DNA from: Chloroflexota bacterium
GTDB taxonomy: Bacteria; Chloroflexota; Anaerolineae; DUEN01
Direction of reading: 5' to 3'
Length of the DNA: 45,594 bases
Assembly (NCBI GenBank): GCA_013152435.1
Contig: JAADGJ010000058.1
Span: 1 to 45,594, forward strand
Shown here: positions 35,983 to 45,321 of the stretch, one piece after another
Layout of the letters: each line of letters opens with the position of its first letter
Numbering within the stretch: position 1 is the first letter of the stretch
Notes under the pieces: model-generated
What the model saw: only the letters and a program-made list of their open reading frames with translations
What the model was told of the DNA's origin: nothing
Database searches by the model: none
Program-made: the position numbers and the translations under genes

Positions 35983-36011
35983 ACGGGGCGACGCTTGCCG
36001 CGTCGCCCCGT
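35983..36011 (-). terminator. intrinsic terminator of the peroxiredoxin gene
   Basis: ACGGGGCGACGC and GCGTCGCCCCGT form a perfect 12-base-pair stem. On the minus strand it is followed by TTTTCGTTTC, so it fits termination of the peroxiredoxin transcript; on the plus strand it may also stop the hydrolase transcript. Confidence 0.85.
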
Positions 36012-36041: not shown

Positions 36042-36644
36042 TCACGTCTCGGGCTTCCATTCCTTCCAGACCTTGCCTACCAGGTCCGGCCCTGGCTTGA
36101 GGGTCGCCGCGCCAGGCTTCCATCCCGCAGGCGTGGCTTCCGTTCCCTCTGTCTCACGCACAAGCTGGAAAGCCTTGATCTGGCGGATCGTCTCGTCCAG
36201 GTTACGCCCCACAGCCGGGGTCAGGATCTCAATCGCCTGGATCACGCCATCGGGATCGATCAAGAACCGCCCACGCATCTCCACGCCAAGTTCTTCATCG
36301 TACACGCCATAGACCTCTCCGACGGTGCCCCCCGTATCCGAGGCCATCGGCCAGGGGATGCCGCCATCCACCATCAAAGAAAGCTCTTGCTCTTCCCATA
36401 CCTTATGCACGTAAACACTGTCCACACTGACAGAGATGACTTGCACGCCGAGTTCTTCCAACTCCTTATGCCGGGCGGCAACTGCCGCCAATTCCGTCGC
36501 TCAGACGAATGTGAAATCGCCTGGATAGAAGCAAAGCAGAACCCACTTGCCCAAATGATCGGAGAGCTTCACCGTGGTGAACTCGCCCTGATAATAGGCT
36601 GGCGCCTCGAAATCGGGAGCTGGCCTACCTATACGCGCTTGCAT
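36042..36644 (-). CDS. prxU: selenocysteine-containing peroxiredoxin (PrxU-like), TGA at the peroxidatic position
   Basis: Two apparent ORFs are one gene of 200 codons if the TGA at 36503-36501 is read as selenocysteine. The sequence is [12 protein letters not shown], then U48, then [11 protein letters not shown]. In AhpC/Prx1 peroxiredoxins the same place holds the peroxidatic cysteine (FTFVCPTE). The rest is a complete thioredoxin-fold peroxiredoxin: [30 protein letters not shown] and [10 protein letters not shown]. The C-terminal resolving cysteine of VCPAGW is T171 (ATPAGW), so it would act without that Cys. AAGGAGGG precedes this ATG. A second in-frame ATG at 36743 also has AAAGGAG and would add 33 residues. 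Known PrxU (Eubacterium acidaminophilum) uses Sec at this site. A simple nonsense mutation is the alternative, but no other lesion is present. SelA, SelB and tRNA-Sec are not in the window. Confidence 0.82.
36474..36503 (-). promoter_or_regulatory. candidate bacterial SECIS element with its UGA codon
   Basis: On the minus strand the UGA is followed after 11 bases by GGCGGC-AGUU-GCCGCC, a perfect six-base-pair stem with a GU-containing tetraloop. Bacterial SECIS elements lie within the coding region just after UGA and carry a short loop with a G early in it and often GU. Spacing and loop fit that description. The stem also encodes conserved peroxiredoxin residues, so its presence could be partly chance. 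Confidence 0.65.
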
Positions 36645-36781
36645 CTTGATTCCCTCCTTGCTCGAAGACGTGGTCTCTTCTTCCGTCTTCCTCGGTTGAC
36701 CGGTGACAAAAGCTCCTGTTGGTCTGGCACATCCTAATGCCATATACGTACTCCTTTCCAGGCGGCACCCTCTCGCCGAAC

Positions 36782-36810
36782 ATTATAAACGAAAATATTG
36801 ATATTAACAA
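36782..36810 (-). promoter_or_regulatory. promoter of the peroxiredoxin gene with a small palindrome
   Basis: On the minus strand TTGTTA, 17 bases, perfect TATAAT. The surroundings are unusually AT-rich for this window. The spacer holds the inverted repeat AATAT-TG-ATATT (36794-36805), a possible operator for a redox or metal regulator, which is inference. Predicted start near 36775 lies 32 bases ahead of the upstream ATG and 131 ahead of the other. Confidence 0.75.
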
Positions 36811-37199: not shown

Positions 37200-38413
37200 T
37201 AACCGATCCGGGAGAGCGCCTGCTCCAGATCCGCCAGCAGATCATCCAGCGCCTCGACGCCCACGGAAAGACGCACCAGCTGGTCGGTGATGCCCAACGC
37301 CTCCCGGTCCTCGGGGGCCATCTCGTAGTAGCTCATCAGCGCGGGCTGCTCCACCAGGCTCTCCACGCCGCCGAAGCTGGGGGCGATACGGGGGATGCGC
37401 AGCGCGTCCACGAAACGCCGGGCGTCCTCGGCGCTGCCATCGATCTCGAACGAGATGAGGCCGCTAAAGCCGCGCATCTGGCGCGCGGCGATGGGATGAT
37501 CCGGGTGCGACTCCAGCCCCGGATACCAGACCCGGCGCACCCGCGGGTGCTCCTCCAGGAACCGGGCGATGGCCATGGCGCTCGTGTTCTGACGCTCGAT
37601 CCGCAGCTCCAGGGTCTTGAGCCCACGCAGGATCAGGTAAGCCACCGTCGGATCCACAACGGCCCCGAACATGGCCTGTGCCTCCCGCAGCGGCACGGTC
37701 AACCCGTCGCGCCCTATGACCACCCCGGCCAACAGGTCGTTGTGCCCGGCCAGGTACTTGGTCACGCTGTGGATGACCAGATCCGCTCCATAGCTCAGCG
37801 GCCTCAGATTGTAGGGGGTGGCGATGGTGCTGTCGATGATCGTGCCCACTCCATGGGCGCGGGCCAGGGAGACCACGCGCTCCAGGTCCAGCACCCGTAG
37901 GAACGGATTGGTGGGGGTTTCGGAGAAGATGTACCGGGTCTCCGGCCGGATGGCCTCCTCGATCGCCTGGTAGTCTCCCGAGGGGACCACGGTCACCTGC
38001 ACCCCCCAACGTCGGAGATACAGGCGACAAAACGCTCGCGTGCGCCGATAGGCATCCGCCGTGACGATCAGATGATCCCCCGGTCGCAACAGGATCAGCA
38101 ACGCCGTGGTGATGGCTGCCATGCCGGAGGAGACGAGGATCGCGTCCTCCCCCTCCTCCAGAGCGGCCAGCTTGGCCTCTGCGGCGCGCACGGTGGGATT
38201 GCCATATCGGCCATACTCCTGCCCCTGAGGCTTGTCCCAGAACATGCGCTCTTCCATGAATCGTTCCAACGCCTCGGAATCAGGGAAGGTGTAGGCCGAC
38301 GTCTGAACGATCGGAGTCGTCACGCTGCTGTAGGGATTCCCGCGTGGCTCGCCAGCCTGCACGGCCCGCGTGCCAAAGCGCTCTCCAGTGCCGTCCTTCT
38401 CTTCCCAAGACAT
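37199..38413 (-). CDS. Cys/Met-metabolism PLP-dependent enzyme (cystathionine gamma-synthase family)
   Basis: The 404-residue fold-type I PLP enzyme has the family layout: [20 protein letters not shown], the [12 protein letters not shown] helix that holds phosphate, [15 protein letters not shown], and the lysine in [16 protein letters not shown] that binds PLP. Late motifs are [14 protein letters not shown] and [13 protein letters not shown]. Members make cystathionine or homocysteine, or cleave C-S bonds; MetB, MetZ, MetC and methionine gamma-lyase cannot be separated by eye. GAGAGGACTC stands before the ATG. No riboswitch was recognised in its leader. Confidence 0.9.
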
Positions 38414-38886: not shown

Positions 38887-39489
38887 TTACATCATCTTGT
38901 CGGCTAGGATGATCGCCTCTGCCACCTCGCTGAGCTTTTTATTCAGATCCTGGCTACGACGCTGCATGCGCCGAAACGCCTCCTCCTCCGTCAGGTTCAA
39001 ACGGCGCATCAGGATCCCTTTGGCCCGCTCGACCAGTTTGCGCGCCTCCAGCGCCTCGCGCAGGCTCTCCACCTCCTGGCGCAGCGCCTGGAACTGACGG
39101 AAACGCGTCATGGCCAGCGTGATCGCCGGCAGCAGGTCATCCTCCGACACCGGCTTCATGAGATAGGCGGAGATGTTCGTCTCGGCCGCACGCTGGGCCA
39201 GCTCCGCCTCGCTATAAGCGGTGAGCAGGATGATGGGAATGGGCCTCTCCCGCGTGATGACCTCCGCCGCCTCAATCCCATCCATCACCGGCATCTTGAT
39301 GTCCATGATGACCAAGTCCGGCTGTAGACGGCGCGCCAGCTCCACCGCCTCGCGGCCGTTGGCCGCCTCCCCGACGACCTGATAGCCCAGGTTCTGCAAT
39401 TGCACTCGCAGACTGAGCACGCGAATGCTCTCGTCGTCGGCGATCAGTATGCGCAATGGCTCAACCGCGTGTCCGTCTTCACCCATCAT
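38887..39489 (-). CDS. ANTAR-domain response regulator
   Basis: A 200-residue response regulator. The receiver domain (about 12-128) has the acidic pair in IADDESIRVL, phospho-acceptor D63 in VIMDIKMPVMDG, T in LLTAY and K in LMKPV. A coiled linker (about 130-150) leads to the ANTAR RNA-binding domain with ARKLVERAKGILMRRLNLTEEEAFRRMQ. Such regulators prevent transcription termination by binding RNA hairpins in target leaders, as in AmiR, NasR or EutV. ATG overlaps the kinase stop (ATGA), so the two are translationally coupled. Confidence 0.95.
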   Translation of the reverse strand: MMGEDGHAVEPLRILIADDESIRVLSLRVQLQNLGYQVVGEAANGREAVELARRLQPDLVIMDIKMPVMDGIEAAEVITRERPIPIILLTAYSEAELAQRAAETNISAYLMKPVSEDDLLPAITLAMTRFRQFQALRQEVESLREALEARKLVERAKGILMRRLNLTEEEAFRRMQRRSQDLNKKLSEVAEAIILADKMM

Positions 39490-41252
39490 TTGTAGAACAC
39501 CAACTGCACCTCTGTTCCACGTCCATTCGCGCTTCCAAAACGCAACATGCCGTTCAGGTCCTTCTCCACCAGCGTGTGGGCGATCTGCAACCCCAGCCCC
39601 TTGCTGTGCTGCACATCAAAGCCGGGCGACAGCCCATGGCCATCGTCTCGGATGGTCACACGCACCTCGTTCCCGTCCTGCGCCAGCTCCACCAAGAGAG
39701 CGCCCCGGTCCAACCCCACGAACGCGTGCTCCAGGGCGTTGCTGATCAGCTCGTTCATGACCAACGCCAGCGCCGTGGCCTGCTTCGAGGGCAGATAGAT
39801 GCTGGGGCCGCGCACCTCGGCGGTAATGCGCTGTCCGGGATGTACCAGGTGCTGGATGGAGATCTCGCACACCTGGCGCGCCAGCTCGGTGATATCCGTC
39901 AGCCGCAGCTGCTCCAGGGAAAGGAGCTGGTGCACCGCGGCGATGGATTTGATGCGAGTGATGCTATCACGCAGGCTCTGCCGGGCGTCAGGGCTGGCGC
40001 TCTGCGACATCTCCAGGGAAAGCAAATCCGCCACCGTCTGCAGGTTGTTCTTGATGCGATGATGCATCTCCTGGATGAGCGTCGAAAGGGCGGCGGCACG
40101 ACGCGCCTCCTCCCGCAGCCGCATGTTCTCCAGGGCCACCCCCATCTGCCTGCCCAGGGAGCTCAACATGGTGAAATCGTCAGGCCGCAGCGCGCCCGGC
40201 TTCACCGCCCCCAGGTGCATCACCCCGATCAACTGGTCCGTCCCCCGCAACGGCACGGAGGCACAGGACTGGAATCCCAGCATCTGGCAGTTCGAGCGGC
40301 TCACCCGGGGGTCATCCTGCAGGTTGTCCACGACCATCGTCTCATCCCGGACGACGGCCAGGCCACACAGGCACTCCCCCGGCTTGACGACGCGCTCCAA
40401 CACCGGACGTTCGGCCACCATGCCATGCGAGACCCGCAGGACCATCTCCTCCTTATCCGCGTCCCACAGGTACACCCGGCCCCCGTCCAGGTCCAGCACC
40501 TCCAGCAATCGGTCCAGCGCCCGCTTCAGGGCCTCATCGACGTCGAACGCCTGATTGATGGCCGCCGAGACGGCGTACAGCGCCATCAGCTCGCGGTTGC
40601 GCCGCTGAAGCTGACGTTGCATGGCACGGCGCCGGCTGATATCCCGCATCACGGCGGAGCTGCCGATCACCCGGCCGTCGGTGTCCCGAACCAGCGTATA
40701 CGTCAAGTCGACGTGGATATGCCGGCCATCCTTCGCCACCCGCACCGTCTCATAATTGCGGATGTACCCCTCCTGATCGACGGCCGATCGGACCTGATCC
40801 CACTCCTCCGCGGCCTCGTCCGTGGGGGGAAGGAGGATGGTGAACGGCTGTCCCAACACCTCCTCCGGCGTGTAGCCGAAAATGGCCTGCGCCCCCCGGT
40901 TCCAACTCCGGATGATGTCTTGAGCGTCCAACCCGACGATGGCATCCGCGGAGTCGTTCGCGACCGTGGCCAGGAAGTGGACCCGTTCATACAGCTCGGA
41001 CAGGCGCCGCTCCGCCTGGGTACGCAGATCCAAATCCCGGCGCAGGCGTCGCAACAACCACCAGGCGATGGCCGGCCCGACCACGCCGAAGGCCAGCGTC
41101 TCCGCCAGGAACCACGCCAGGCTGGTCGGACGCCCGCCCAACGCCCGACTGATGAATTGGTAAGCGATGACGAGCAAGCCCAGGGTGATCGGCCCGATCC
41201 ACTGCAGCCGCCTCAAACGAGCCACCCAACGGGTCTCCTGCTGTAACGGCAT
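39486..41252 (-). CDS. membrane-bound PAS-GAF histidine kinase (HisKA_2 type)
   Basis: A 588-residue sensor kinase. Two membrane helices (about 17-38 and 45-68) are followed by a PAS domain (about 90-210: VANDSADAIVGLDAQDIIRSWNRG), then a GAF domain (about 225-365: VYLWDADKEEM, CLCGLAVVRDETMVV). The dimerisation helix holds the phosphorylated His in EMHHRIKNNLQTVADLL, typical of HisKA_2 kinases that pair with ANTAR regulators (EutW/PdtaS-like). The ATPase domain has NELISNALEHAF, DDGHGL and KGLGLQIAHTLV. GAGGGG stands close before the ATG. The signal is unknown; GAF cysteines (ECLCG, NCQML) might bind a ligand or metal. Confidence 0.94.
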   Translation of the reverse strand: MPLQQETRWVARLRRLQWIGPITLGLLVIAYQFISRALGGRPTSLAWFLAETLAFGVVGPAIAWWLLRRLRRDLDLRTQAERRLSELYERVHFLATVANDSADAIVGLDAQDIIRSWNRGAQAIFGYTPEEVLGQPFTILLPPTDEAAEEWDQVRSAVDQEGYIRNYETVRVAKDGRHIHVDLTYTLVRDTDGRVIGSSAVMRDISRRRAMQRQLQRRNRELMALYAVSAAINQAFDVDEALKRALDRLLEVLDLDGGRVYLWDADKEEMVLRVSHGMVAERPVLERVVKPGECLCGLAVVRDETMVVDNLQDDPRVSRSNCQMLGFQSCASVPLRGTDQLIGVMHLGAVKPGALRPDDFTMLSSLGRQMGVALENMRLREEARRAAALSTLIQEMHHRIKNNLQTVADLLSLEMSQSASPDARQSLRDSITRIKSIAAVHQLLSLEQLRLTDITELARQVCEISIQHLVHPGQRITAEVRGPSIYLPSKQATALALVMNELISNALEHAFVGLDRGALLVELAQDGNEVRVTIRDDGHGLSPGFDVQHSKGLGLQIAHTLVEKDLNGMLRFGSANGRGTEVQLVFYK

Positions 41253-41389: not shown

Positions 41390-41530
41390 CCAGGGCGCTT
41401 TTCGATCCCACAACGGTTACGTCGACGCGTGGCCACATCGGGGAAGACGGCGCGGAGGAAACCGATACTCACCCACATCATCGCCATCCCGACCATCCCC
41501 AAGCCCTCTCTCCATGAATATCCCGAATTT

Positions 41531-41559
41531 ATCTTACATGAACCATACTACTATGTCAA
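41531..41559 (-). promoter_or_regulatory. candidate promoter of the kinase/ANTAR operon
   Basis: On the minus strand TTGACA, 17 bases, TAAGAT in an AT-rich patch. Predicted start near 41524 gives a long leader of about 270 bases. Confidence 0.55.
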
Positions 41560-41648
41560 CTATTCCCACGCGGGTGACCGGGCTTTTCAAAACTCCAACC
41601 TCCAGATAGCGGACGGTCTTCCCCCATGTGAACGGCGCCTGATTCCAT

Positions 41649-41677
41649 TTGACCCTTTTCCCCCTTTCGCTTATAAT
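41649..41677 (+). promoter_or_regulatory. promoter of lacI-rbsD-rbsC-rbsB
   Basis: TTGACC, 17 bases, perfect TATAAT. Predicted start near 41684 falls inside the operator described next, about 50 bases ahead of the LacI-family start codon. Confidence 0.85.
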
Positions 41678-41682
41678 GATAA

Positions 41683-41704
41683 AAACGTTTGCGCAATCGA
41701 TTGC
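41683..41704 (+). promoter_or_regulatory. operator for the LacI-family regulator
   Basis: Two adjoining palindromes, AAACGTTT and GCAATCGATTGC, lie directly after the -10 box. The central CG and A/T-flanked palindromes are typical of LacI-family operators. Binding here would block the start site, so autorepression relieved by sugar is likely (inference). Confidence 0.65.
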
Positions 41705-41734
41705 TTCCCGAGAGAAACCCGGAGTTCCCCACTC

Positions 41735-42724
41735 ATGGCGACCATCAAAGACGTTGCGAAACGCGCTGGCGTCTCCGTCACCACCGTATCCCACGTCCTG
41801 AACGAGACGCGCTACGTCAGCCCGGAACTTGTAGCCCGGGTGTGGGAGGCCGTCGAAGCCCTGAACTACCAGCCCAATGCGGTTGCGCGCAGCCTGCGCC
41901 GTAAGCGCACCCACACCCTCGGCATGATTATCCCGGACAACTCCAACCCCTTCTTCGCCGAGGTGGCCCGGGGGATCGAAGACGTGTGCTTCGACCTGGG
42001 CTATAACGTGATCCTTTGCAACTCAGATCAGGATCCTCAAAAGGAGCGACGATACATCGATCTGCTCACGGAAAAGCGGGTAGATGGGATCGTCTTCGTC
42101 GCGGCCGGTGACCGGGCGGAGCATCTGGAGGCCGTCCTCACCCGACGCGTCCCGGTGGTGGTGATCGATCGAGAGCTACAGGATGTCCAATGCGACCGTG
42201 TGCTCACGGACAACCGAACCGGGGGGCGACAGGCCACGGAACATCTCATCCAGCGGGGTCGCACACGCATCGCCTGCATCGCCGGCCCCTCCGACGTGAC
42301 GCCCAGTTGGGAGCGGGTCTGGGGCTACCAGGACGCCCTGACGGAGGCCGGCCTTCCCTTCGACGAGCAGTTGATCCGCCGAGGGAACTTCCAGGCCGCC
42401 AGTGGGTACAGGGCCATGCGTGAGCTCCTGGCGCTATCCGATCCACCCACGGGCGTCTTCGCCTGCAACGACATGATGGCGATCGGCGCCATCTGCGCCA
42501 TCAGCGAGGCGGGATTGAGGATCCCGGAAGACATCGCCGTCGTCGGCTTCGACGACATCGCGCTGGCCTCCTACACCAATCCGCCCCTGACGACCGTCGC
42601 CCAGCCGCGTCAGGAGATCGGTCGGCTGGCCGCGGAGATGCTCATTGAACGCATCTCGAACCGGAGTCGCCCTCCTCAGCGGCACCTCCTGGAGACCTGG
42701 CTGGTCGTCCGTCAGTCCACATGA
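41735..42724 (+). CDS. LacI-family transcriptional regulator (RbsR-like)
   Basis: A 329-residue repressor. The helix-turn-helix TIKDVAKRAGVSVTTVSHVLN is at the N-terminus, the hinge helix is PNAVARSLRRKRT, and the periplasmic-binding-like sensor starts HTLGMIIPDNSNPFF. Further motifs are VDGIVFVAAG, VTDNRTGG-like DNRTGGRQATEHL, and GFDDIALASYTNPPLTTVAQP. I chose ATG before ATIKDVAKRAG, as in the family; a long upstream frame overlaps promoter and operator. It heads the rbs operon, so its ligand is probably ribose or a related sugar. Confidence 0.93.
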   Translation: MATIKDVAKRAGVSVTTVSHVLNETRYVSPELVARVWEAVEALNYQPNAVARSLRRKRTHTLGMIIPDNSNPFFAEVARGIEDVCFDLGYNVILCNSDQDPQKERRYIDLLTEKRVDGIVFVAAGDRAEHLEAVLTRRVPVVVIDRELQDVQCDRVLTDNRTGGRQATEHLIQRGRTRIACIAGPSDVTPSWERVWGYQDALTEAGLPFDEQLIRRGNFQAASGYRAMRELLALSDPPTGVFACNDMMAIGAICAISEAGLRIPEDIAVVGFDDIALASYTNPPLTTVAQPRQEIGRLAAEMLIERISNRSRPPQRHLLETWLVVRQST

Positions 42725-42806
42725 GGAGATATCCCCGACACCAGGCATATCGGCCAAGGCTACGCACCTATCAGCCCAGGCCGCCAGCTCAATGGAGAGG
42801 CTATCG

Positions 42807-43202
42807 ATGAAAAAGCGAGGTCTGCTTCACCCGGAACTGAATCGCATCATCGCCGAACTGGGTCACACGGACACCATCGTCATCGCCGACGCGGGCCTGC
42901 CCATCCCACAGGGACCAACCCGGATCGACCTGGCCCTCATCGAGGGGGTTCCACCGTTTCTCACGGTGCTCGAGGCGATCTTGAAGGAGGTCCAGATTGA
43001 GGGGGCGACCATCGCCGAGGAGATGGAGGAGATCAGCCCGATCCTCTACGATCAGGTGGTGACGCTGATGGGTTCGACCCCGCTCCGCCGGGTGCCGCAT
43101 GTCGTCTTTAAGGACCAGACGCGCCTCGCCCGCGCGGTGATCCGAACCGGAGAGTTCACCCCGTACGCGAACATCATTCTAGAGGCTGGTGTGATATTTT
43201 AG
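42807..43202 (+). CDS. rbsD: D-ribose pyranase RbsD
   Basis: RbsD converts the pyranose and furanose forms of D-ribose so the kinase can use it. The 131-residue protein shows the family pattern: MKKRGLLHPELNRIIAELGH with the active-site His in the following helix, IVIADAGLPIP, IDLALIEGVPPFL, and the C-terminal TGEFTPYANIILEAGVIF. GGAGAGG precedes the ATG. Close relatives act on fucose (FucU), but the full TPYANIIL end fits RbsD best. Confidence 0.93.
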   Translation: MKKRGLLHPELNRIIAELGHTDTIVIADAGLPIPQGPTRIDLALIEGVPPFLTVLEAILKEVQIEGATIAEEMEEISPILYDQVVTLMGSTPLRRVPHVVFKDQTRLARAVIRTGEFTPYANIILEAGVIF

Positions 43203-43210
43203 GTGAGACG

Positions 43211-44236
43211 ATGCCATCAACCAACGGCGGAAAATCCTCCCAACTCGCGGCCGAAGTGGCCCAGCCCACCGACTCACCGACAGCCGGGGCCCAGGCCTCA
43301 CGGGGGTGGCAGCAGCGCCTGCACGACTTCTTGAGCCGCTTCGGGCTGGTGCTATCCTTCGGCCTGCTGGTCTTCGTCCTGACGCTGCTGTCGGATCGCT
43401 TCCTCACCGTCTCCAACACGGTGAACATCCTCCGACAGGCAGCCATCAACGGCATCATCTCCGTCGGGATGACGTATGTCATCCTCACGGCCGGCATCGA
43501 CCTGTCCGTCGGCGCCGTGCTGGCCCTGGCCAACGTCATCGTCGCCGATTTCCTGGTGCAGGGCGGTCATCCGGGCCTGGCCATCCTCCTGGGCCTGGCG
43601 ATCGGATCCGGGTTCGGGCTGGTCAACGGGCTCTTCACCACCCGTTTCGGGGTGCCCCCCTTCATCGTCACCCTGGGCACCATGACCATCGCCCGCGGCC
43701 TGGCCCTGACCTATACCCAGGGTCAACCCATCACCGGGCTGCCGGAGGGCTTCCGTTTCATGGGCACCGGCTCCCTGGGCCCCCTCCCGATGCCCATCGT
43801 GCTCATGATCCTGACGTTCGCCGTAGGCTATTTCGTCCTGAACCGCACCACCCTTGGCGCCTACATCTATGCGCTGGGGAATAATCCCACCGCCGCCCGC
43901 TTCGCCGGCATCCCGGTGAATCGCTACACATCCCTGGTGTACATCATCAGCGGTGGGCTCTCCGCCCTGGCCGGGATGATCCTGATCGCCCGCCTGAACT
44001 CGGCACAGCCAACCGCAGGGCTCGGCTATGAATTCGACGCCATCGCGGCGGTGGTCGTGGGCGGCACCAGCCTGGCCGGGGGGCAGGGAGGATTGGGGGG
44101 CACGCTGCTCGGCGTGCTGATCATCCAGGTCCTGAACAACGGCCTGAACCTCCTCAACGTCTCCTCGTTTTACCAACAGGTCGTCCAGGGCGTGGTGATC
44201 GCCCTGGCGCTGCTGTGGCATCGCGCGTTCCGCTGA
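43211..44236 (+). CDS. rbsC: ribose/sugar ABC transporter permease RbsC
   Basis: A 341-residue inner-membrane permease with about ten hydrophobic segments. Family motifs are GMTYVILTAGIDLSVGAVLAL, GLVNGLFTTRFGVPPFIVTLGTM and the coupling-loop region YALGNNPTAARFAGIPVNRY, then AVVVGGTSLAGGQGG. The first 45 residues are polar and not conserved. TTAGGTGAG precedes the ATG. No RbsA ATPase lies between rbsD and rbsC, where many operons place it. Confidence 0.94.
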   Translation: MPSTNGGKSSQLAAEVAQPTDSPTAGAQASRGWQQRLHDFLSRFGLVLSFGLLVFVLTLLSDRFLTVSNTVNILRQAAINGIISVGMTYVILTAGIDLSVGAVLALANVIVADFLVQGGHPGLAILLGLAIGSGFGLVNGLFTTRFGVPPFIVTLGTMTIARGLALTYTQGQPITGLPEGFRFMGTGSLGPLPMPIVLMILTFAVGYFVLNRTTLGAYIYALGNNPTAARFAGIPVNRYTSLVYIISGGLSALAGMILIARLNSAQPTAGLGYEFDAIAAVVVGGTSLAGGQGGLGGTLLGVLIIQVLNNGLNLLNVSSFYQQVVQGVVIALALLWHRAFR

Positions 44237-44326
44237 TACCACGAGCGATCACACAGAAAGGAGGATCACGGGAAGATTCACTCAATCAGAGACCGTCGAT
44301 ACGCCATCGGGCCGAATGGCCCTGAC

Positions 44327-44365
44327 ATGAAAAACCCAGTATCGAAAAAGGAGGTAGCACCATGA
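44327..44365 (+). other. possible 12-codon upstream ORF overlapping the rbsB start
   Basis: ATG AAA AAC ... CCA TGA encodes MKNPVSKKEVAP and ends within the rbsB ATGA. It contains the rbsB ribosome-binding site. It has no ribosome-binding site of its own, and only a small GGGCC-GAAT-GGCCC hairpin precedes it, so translation is doubtful. Confidence 0.15.
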
Positions 44366-45321
44366 ATCGCCGATGGTCATTTACGCTGGTCGCTCTAACG
44401 CTTATCGTAGGGCTCCTGGTCGCTTGTGCGCCGCCCACAGCGGCACCGGCACCGCAGGAGAAGCCGGCCGAGCAGCCGAAGCCCGAAAAGATCACGCTGG
44501 GGCTCTCCCTCTCCACGCTGAACAACCCGTTCTTCGTCACGCTGCAGGAGGGAGCTCAGAAGGCGGCCGATGAGTTGGGCGTGGAGCTCATCGTGGTGGA
44601 CGCCCAGGATGATCCGGCCAAGGAGGCCACCAATCTGGAGGACCTGATCCAGCGCGGTGTCGACGCCCTGCTGATCAACCCCACCGATGCGGACGCCGTG
44701 GTCCCCAGCGTGCAGAAGGCTAACGAGGCAGGCATCCCCGTTCTGACGGTGGACCGCTCGGCCAGCGGCGGTGAGGTCGTGTCCCACATCGCCTCAGACA
44801 ATGTGGCGGGCGGCCGCATGGCGGCAGAGTTCCTCTGCAACGCCCTGAACGGCAAGGGCAAGGTCGTCGAGCTGGAGGGCATCCCCGGCACCTCGGCCGC
44901 ACGCGATCGAGGTAAGGGCTTCAATGACTACATGAAGGAGAAGTGCCCCGATATCGAGATCGTGGCGCGCCAGACGGCGAACTTCAACCGGGCCGAGGGA
45001 CTCTCCGTCTTCGAGAACATCCTCCAGGCCCAGCCGGAGATCGACGGCGTCTTCGCCCACAACGATGAGATGATCCTCGGCGCCATCCAGGCGGCCCAGG
45101 CCGCAGGTCGCGCCGATGAGATCATCTTCGTCGGCTTCGACGCCATCGACGACGCGGTACAGGCGGTGAAGGACGGCACGCTGGCCGCGACCATCGCCCA
45201 GCAGCCGGCGGAGATGGGCCGGTTGGCCGTGGAGACCGCCGTCAAGTACCTGAACGGCGAGCAGGTGCCCGACTTCATCCCGGTGCCCCTGCAGCTCGTG
45301 ACGGCTGAGACGGTGAAGTAA
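44362..45321 (+). CDS. rbsB: ribose/sugar ABC transporter substrate-binding lipoprotein RbsB
   Basis: A 319-residue lipoprotein: signal peptide with LLVAC lipobox (Cys about 22), a Pro/Ala/Glu linker, then a periplasmic-binding fold starting ITLGLSLSTLNNPFFVTLQEG. Further family motifs are DAQDDPAKEATNLEDLIQRG, LLINPTDADAVVP, VLTVDRSA, FAHNDEMILGAIQA and FVGFDAIDDAVQAV. The NPFF and DR positions contact sugar in RbsB. AAAGGAGGTAGCACC precedes the ATG. Ligand type (ribose or relative) follows from rbsD and the binding-site motifs and is not proven. Confidence 0.94.
   Translation: MNRRWSFTLVALTLIVGLLVACAPPTAAPAPQEKPAEQPKPEKITLGLSLSTLNNPFFVTLQEGAQKAADELGVELIVVDAQDDPAKEATNLEDLIQRGVDALLINPTDADAVVPSVQKANEAGIPVLTVDRSASGGEVVSHIASDNVAGGRMAAEFLCNALNGKGKVVELEGIPGTSAARDRGKGFNDYMKEKCPDIEIVARQTANFNRAEGLSVFENILQAQPEIDGVFAHNDEMILGAIQAAQAAGRADEIIFVGFDAIDDAVQAVKDGTLAATIAQQPAEMGRLAVETAVKYLNGEQVPDFIPVPLQLVTAETVK

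Follow-up and report, generated by a model that had tools for sequence, protein, structure and literature searches.

The prxU locus

The window analysed here is the whole stretch of 45,594 nucleotides of one contig (JAADGJ010000058.1), taken from a draft genome of a Chloroflexota bacterium that comprises 149 contigs and is 95.8% complete. On the minus strand, a peroxiredoxin open reading frame running from 36743 to 36042 contains a single in-frame TGA. Translation confirmed what a first, sequence-only reading of this DNA had claimed: the TGA falls exactly at the position of the peroxidatic cysteine, as codon 81 of a read-through product of 233 amino acids, and is the only interruption of the frame, which itself closes with a TGA stop (36044-36042). 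Pfam assigns the read-through protein to AhpC-TSA (1.1e-37), with 1-cysPrx_C in addition. The NCBIfam model NF040737 (peroxi_PrxU) matches positions 2-232 of the 233, N-terminal tail included, with 394 bits against a cut-off of 270, while the AhpC model TIGR03137 scores 183 bits, below its cut-off of 272. The motif of the family, PxxxTxxU, with U at the peroxidatic position (PMC13188914), is present as P74-G-D-F-T78-F-V-U81. By its sequence, the protein is a PrxU-type selenocysteine peroxiredoxin, a member of a family already known and ordinary in kind, and the earlier comparison with PrxU of Eubacterium acidaminophilum was apt. PrxU was described in that organism (Soehling et al. 2001, as cited in PMC13188914); sulfate reducers have been listed among its bearers (PMC4046663, PMC5109826), and it was reported to be up-regulated in Sulfobacillus (PMC7409299).

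The features of the gene are collected in Table 1. The promoter and terminator attributed to it previously are both recovered as promoter-like and terminator-like sites by consensus scans. The expectation that automated callers would report two fragments holds in part: some pipelines may miss the gene, but the NCBI PrxU model recognises the read-through protein.

Table 1. Features of the prxU locus (positions in the window).
Feature	Position	Strand	Evidence
prxU, predicted long form, 233 aa, Sec81	36042..36743	-	translation; Pfam AhpC-TSA; NCBIfam NF040737
Predicted Sec codon TGA, peroxidatic position, P-G-D-F-T-F-V-U	36501..36503	-	sequence; same codon TGA in 45 + 80 homologues
SECIS-like hairpin GGCGGC-AGUU-GCCGCC	36474..36489	-	fold; family synonymous-null test; compensatory pair types; bSECIS rules
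Shine-Dalgarno AAAGGAG of the upstream (long-form) start, ATG 36743	36751..36757	-	sequence; arrangement common to family
N-terminal tail, 33 codons, motif GCARPTG	36645..36743	-	tail Cys in 123/123 tail-bearing genes; PrxU HMM covers tail
Codon of invariant tail Cys, residue 5	36729..36731	-	family comparison
Internal Shine-Dalgarno AAGGAGG within tail coding sequence	36653..36659	-	sequence; family statistics
Internal start ATG (Met34), predicted short form 200 aa, Sec48	36642..36644	-	ATG 120/125, GTG 4/125 genes
Codon of conserved Cys71 (LCFYP)	36531..36533	-	Cys kept in 44/45 and 80/80 homologues
Promoter-like site TTGTTA-17-TATAAT	36782..36810	-	consensus scan only
Terminator-like hairpin downstream of prxU	35983..36011	-	consensus scan only

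A gene for a PLP-dependent enzyme of cysteine/methionine metabolism lies upstream on the same strand (37202-38413). Elsewhere, the window encodes a LarC-like nickel insertion protein (PF01969; 31937-33148), an ANTAR-domain response regulator adjoining a PAS/GAF histidine kinase of the HisKA_2 type (38890-41252) and a LacI-type regulator followed by genes for the permease and the periplasmic binding protein of an ABC transporter of the sugar type (41429-45318). A search around the prxU loci brought up no conserved gene partner; flavodiiron protein, rubrerythrin, KatG-like, cytochrome bd and Hcp-like genes, families named by reading of the sequences, recur at only a few loci each.

Conservation of the selenocysteine codon

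Homologues were collected at two depths. Within the class, 150 genomes were searched; 43 of them (the host included) have a total of 45 loci with at least 54% identity, and all 45 carry TGA at the same codon. The same is true of all 80 wider relatives examined, which are the best 80 of 563 by score and not a random sample; their labels include Chloroflexota, Desulfobacterota, Nitrospirota, Acidobacteriota, KSB1, Zixibacteria, Krumholzibacteriota, Calditrichota, Spirochaetes, Planctomycetes and others. The statement that all known relatives have cysteine at this spot is wrong: TGA is present in all close relatives, and Cys is confined to distant ones (35-39%), among them four class loci that were translated (35-37% identity over the match).

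A sample of 400 genomes of the phylum yielded 16 loci above the PrxU cut-off, 15 of them with an internal TGA. The remaining one (L194, in genome G230) is free of stops, and cysteine occupies the active site in the form translated there. This PrxU-like protein, with Cys in place of Sec, has neither the tail cysteine nor the LCFYP cysteine described below, and the same genome also has a Sec form. A peroxiredoxin on contig C73 was considered as a second TGA-containing case and set aside, as the aligned part of its local translation contains Cys instead of TGA and the frame closes with TAG.

The hairpin behind the UGA

A hairpin of six base pairs (-12.5 kcal/mol) begins 11 nt after the UGA. Its apical loop, AGUU, lies 17 nt after the UGA and has a G in the second position, in agreement with the published constraints on bacterial SECIS elements (a loop of 3-9 nt with G among its first two positions, a stem of 4-16 bp, a distance of 16-37 nt to the UGA, MFE <= -7.5; PMC13188914). 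On its own, the hairpin of the window is no more stable than dinucleotide-shuffled sequences (z -0.4 to -1.2). Because the single-sequence fold is not significant by this measure, a family-wide synonymous test was used instead, in which codons were resampled synonymously within each of 122 distinct genes. Across these genes, 5.75 of the 6 pairs are formed against 4.27 expected, and the mean energy is -9.9 kcal/mol against -5.0 under the synonymous null; the sequences are related by descent, so that p-values overstate their independence. The pairs also covary: three of them vary among G-C, U-A and A-U, including both pairs that join third codon positions, and at the third-position pairs the exchange extends over G-C, U-A, A-U and C-G. 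The G/C hairpin noticed at first sight is real by folding and kept far beyond the synonymous null, which supports its being a selected RNA structure.

Selenocysteine machinery of the genome

The three protein genes that had been named as worth searching for are all present in the rest of the genome: selA (572 bits, cut-off 268), selB (323 bits with its neighbours in the frame included, cut-off 242) and selD (379 bits). The selD gene, too, carries a UGA in frame, at the active site AACAGUASK (locus L017, 1501-2430, corresponding to C61:15736-16665, and just upstream). The selA gene is cut by the end of contig C147 and resumes on C96, the two contig ends overlapping by 383 bp at 97% (L022 1-383, L023 5427-5809), which suggests an assembly break or a strain mixture. 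Across the class, selA occurs in 41 of the 43 genomes bearing the UGA form; the two exceptions are incomplete, at 73% and 87%.

The TCA-anticodon tRNA-Sec expected alongside these genes was not found in the 149-contig draft, whether by a covariance model, by a pattern search, by running ARAGORN over candidate loci or by way of the flanks of the congener's gene. The top hits of the covariance model were ordinary Leu and Ser tRNAs, and the genes flanking the tRNA-Sec of the congener lie here on two different, unbroken stretches. ARAGORN calls a tRNA-Sec (UCA) in the congener (G001) and in another member of the family (G003), and the missing gene would most simply be a gap in the draft assembly.

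Is the TGA a selenocysteine codon at all? A pseudogene or a sequencing error, the TGA being a damaged cysteine codon, would also leave one in-frame stop in a draft genome. This reading is refuted by conservation, since 124 of the 124 homologues examined have TGA at the same codon; the Sec machinery in the genome and the conserved hairpin speak against it as well, and its probability is negligible. A genome-wide reassignment of UGA, for example to Trp or Gly, would be compatible with a draft that yields no tRNA-Sec, but it would have to accommodate a prxU gene that itself uses TGA as its terminal stop, the presence of selA, selB and selD, and the tRNA-Sec(UCA) of the congener; it is equally far-fetched. 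Insertion of selenocysteine at UGA codon 81 is, on this evidence, almost certain.

A second start signal in front of the core

The gene shows two ribosome-binding sites, one before the ATG at 36743 and another that belongs to an internal start. In the window gene the tail coding sequence ends in AAGGAGG, 8 nt before an in-frame ATG that immediately precedes the peroxiredoxin core. This arrangement, a Shine-Dalgarno sequence and a start codon at the end of the tail, is found in 124 of 125 genes (ATG in 120, GTG in 4), a count that includes L100, a tail-less paralogue that begins exactly at the family's internal start. The mean anti-Shine-Dalgarno pairing is -10.8 kcal/mol, against -5.8 for a null in which the preceding codons were resampled synonymously within each gene (Wilcoxon 4e-22). 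The internal start was taken to be whichever start codon, at most nine codons from the core, had the best site upstream of it, a choice that slightly favours the observed value. The internal site is stronger than the null mean of its own gene in 123 of 124 genes; the excess per gene is often moderate (median p 0.145), and the strength of the result lies in the agreement of many genes. Pairing at 608 other internal ATGs averages -3.3 kcal/mol, and the site of the upstream start is equally strong (-11.1). In 75 of 117 reading frames the internal site is the strongest Shine-Dalgarno-like site of the whole ORF. The gene thus has a second in-frame start with its own Shine-Dalgarno sequence, conserved beyond synonymous chance.

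Since both start signals are conserved and each is preceded by a Shine-Dalgarno sequence of its own, two products are the most likely outcome. It is possible, however, that the long form alone is made and that the internal site is a by-product of a linker end rich in lysine and glutamate, residues that are common there and whose codons naturally spell AAGGAG. Yet the synonymous choice within genes favours the Shine-Dalgarno sequence, with GAG:GAA at 139:35 in the last six tail codons against 957:1285 elsewhere. The site also occurs in all three codon frames (79/34/7) and persists where the amino acids have changed (ERR in L058, TGV in L182, EGE in L127), and where the methionine is replaced the codon is GTG. 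The by-product reading is unlikely on these grounds, though it keeps some weight. Alternatively, the short form alone could be made, with the upstream ATG and the tail as an untranslated leader. The short form is as long as ordinary peroxiredoxins, and L100 consists of it alone, but a leader would not account for a tail frame that is open and has its own strong Shine-Dalgarno sequence, or for an invariant cysteine and the motif C-A-R-P-T-G-G-P-V-G-E kept across phyla; this reading is highly improbable. As judged from the sequences, production of both isoforms, a long one with the tail cysteine and a short one without it, is likely.

The tail cysteine and the missing resolving cysteine

The N-terminal tail, which is not found in ordinary AhpC/Prx1, is 31-41 codons long (about 37) and has a cysteine in 123 of 123 tail-bearing genes. 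Around this invariant residue the consensus G-C-A-R-P-T-G-G-P-V-G-E is kept across phyla. A second cysteine, that of LCFYP (Cys71 here), is conserved in 44 of the 45 class homologues and in all 80 wider ones (the best 80 of 563); the best-matching ordinary peroxiredoxins, PDB relatives, have Phe at this site (FFYP). The typical C-terminal resolving cysteine (VCPAGW), on the other hand, is absent from the window protein, which reads EATPAGW, and similarly from most of the family. The substitution of ATPAGW for VCPAGW had been noted from the sequence as a sign of shifted redox chemistry; it is present, but this gene has it in common with most of the family. The classical C-terminal cysteine is retained alongside that of the tail in 7 of the 80 wider homologues (the best 80 of 563), and for this reason the tail cysteine is not simply a replacement for it.

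The tail-less paralogue L100 (324-923), the second Sec-PrxU of genome G011, has Met at the position of the LCFYP cysteine and Cys in TPACW. The other tail-less locus, L194, with Cys for Sec, likewise has Cys in TPACW and has lost that of LCFYP. The joint loss of the tail and the LCFYP cysteine, in two cases only, fits a redox role for the tail.

An AlphaFold2 model of the protein (mean pLDDT 86, pTM 0.84) predicts a peroxiredoxin core whose best structural matches are typical 2-Cys peroxiredoxins. The tail is modelled with low to moderate confidence, with a short strand predicted at residues 7-12. A search of the PDB with the tail and the start of the core matched the core alone, and no solved structure matched the tail by sequence.

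A proposed model for PrxU with two start signals

Taken together, the gene very probably encodes a selenoprotein PrxU that carries a conserved second start signal. The hairpin behind the UGA would guide SelB in bringing the Sec-tRNA, so that this codon is decoded as selenocysteine in the peroxidatic position, where the selenol, to judge from the family, would reduce peroxides. The two starts, each with its own Shine-Dalgarno sequence, would give a long form with a flexible tail bearing the invariant cysteine and a short form that starts at the core. How, then, might the oxidised selenocysteine be recycled in a peroxiredoxin whose usual C-terminal resolving cysteine is gone? It can be speculated that the tail cysteine, possibly together with Cys71, helps to resolve or relay it, an idea that we hold tentatively and with less than even confidence, while the short form would depend on an external thiol. 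In human Prx4, Cys51 of the tail bridges adjacent dimers, and catalysis survives its mutation (PMC3824332), which discourages certainty about the role of the tail cysteine. On balance it is also probable, if a shade less so than the two isoforms themselves, that PrxU genes across many phyla are conserved two-product genes in which the mix of subunits in the ring sets how the oxidised selenocysteine is resolved or relayed.

The sequence-only reading was right in both observation and interpretation; what it missed were the conserved tail cysteine and the internal start. As a selenoprotein the finding is routine, adding to PrxU one more draft genome, whose closest named relatives are Chloroflexota. 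If the internal start is used, current annotation shows just one of the two products of a widespread antioxidant gene, and the tail cysteine would offer a concrete and testable answer to the problem of selenium recycling in a peroxiredoxin without a resolving cysteine. The literature searched, mostly outside subscription journals, contains no description of the second conserved start or the invariant tail cysteine, and both look unreported.

Comparison with known systems

In family membership, nothing separates the window protein from PrxU as defined by NF040737: it has selenocysteine at the peroxidatic position in PxxxTxxU, and the N-terminal tail lies inside the model. With the typical 2-Cys peroxiredoxins of the AhpC/Prx1 group (TIGR03137; Prx1, Prx2 and AhpC in the PDB), it shares the fold and active site, and these are its best structural matches; it differs from them in having Sec for Cys and no C-terminal resolving cysteine, and falls below the TIGR03137 cut-off.

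Tandem in-frame starts are known to give some bacterial proteins, for example IF2 alpha/beta, in two lengths. The likeness lies in one gene with two Shine-Dalgarno sequences, whose isoforms differ at the N-terminus. To our knowledge there is no such case among peroxiredoxins or selenoproteins, and the literature searched held no relevant paper on one. Human peroxiredoxin 4 offers a different parallel, as it combines a Prx1-type core with a flexible N-terminal extension bearing a cysteine (PMC3824332). Differently from the window protein, Prx4 retains the C-terminal resolving cysteine and has neither selenocysteine nor an internal bacterial start.
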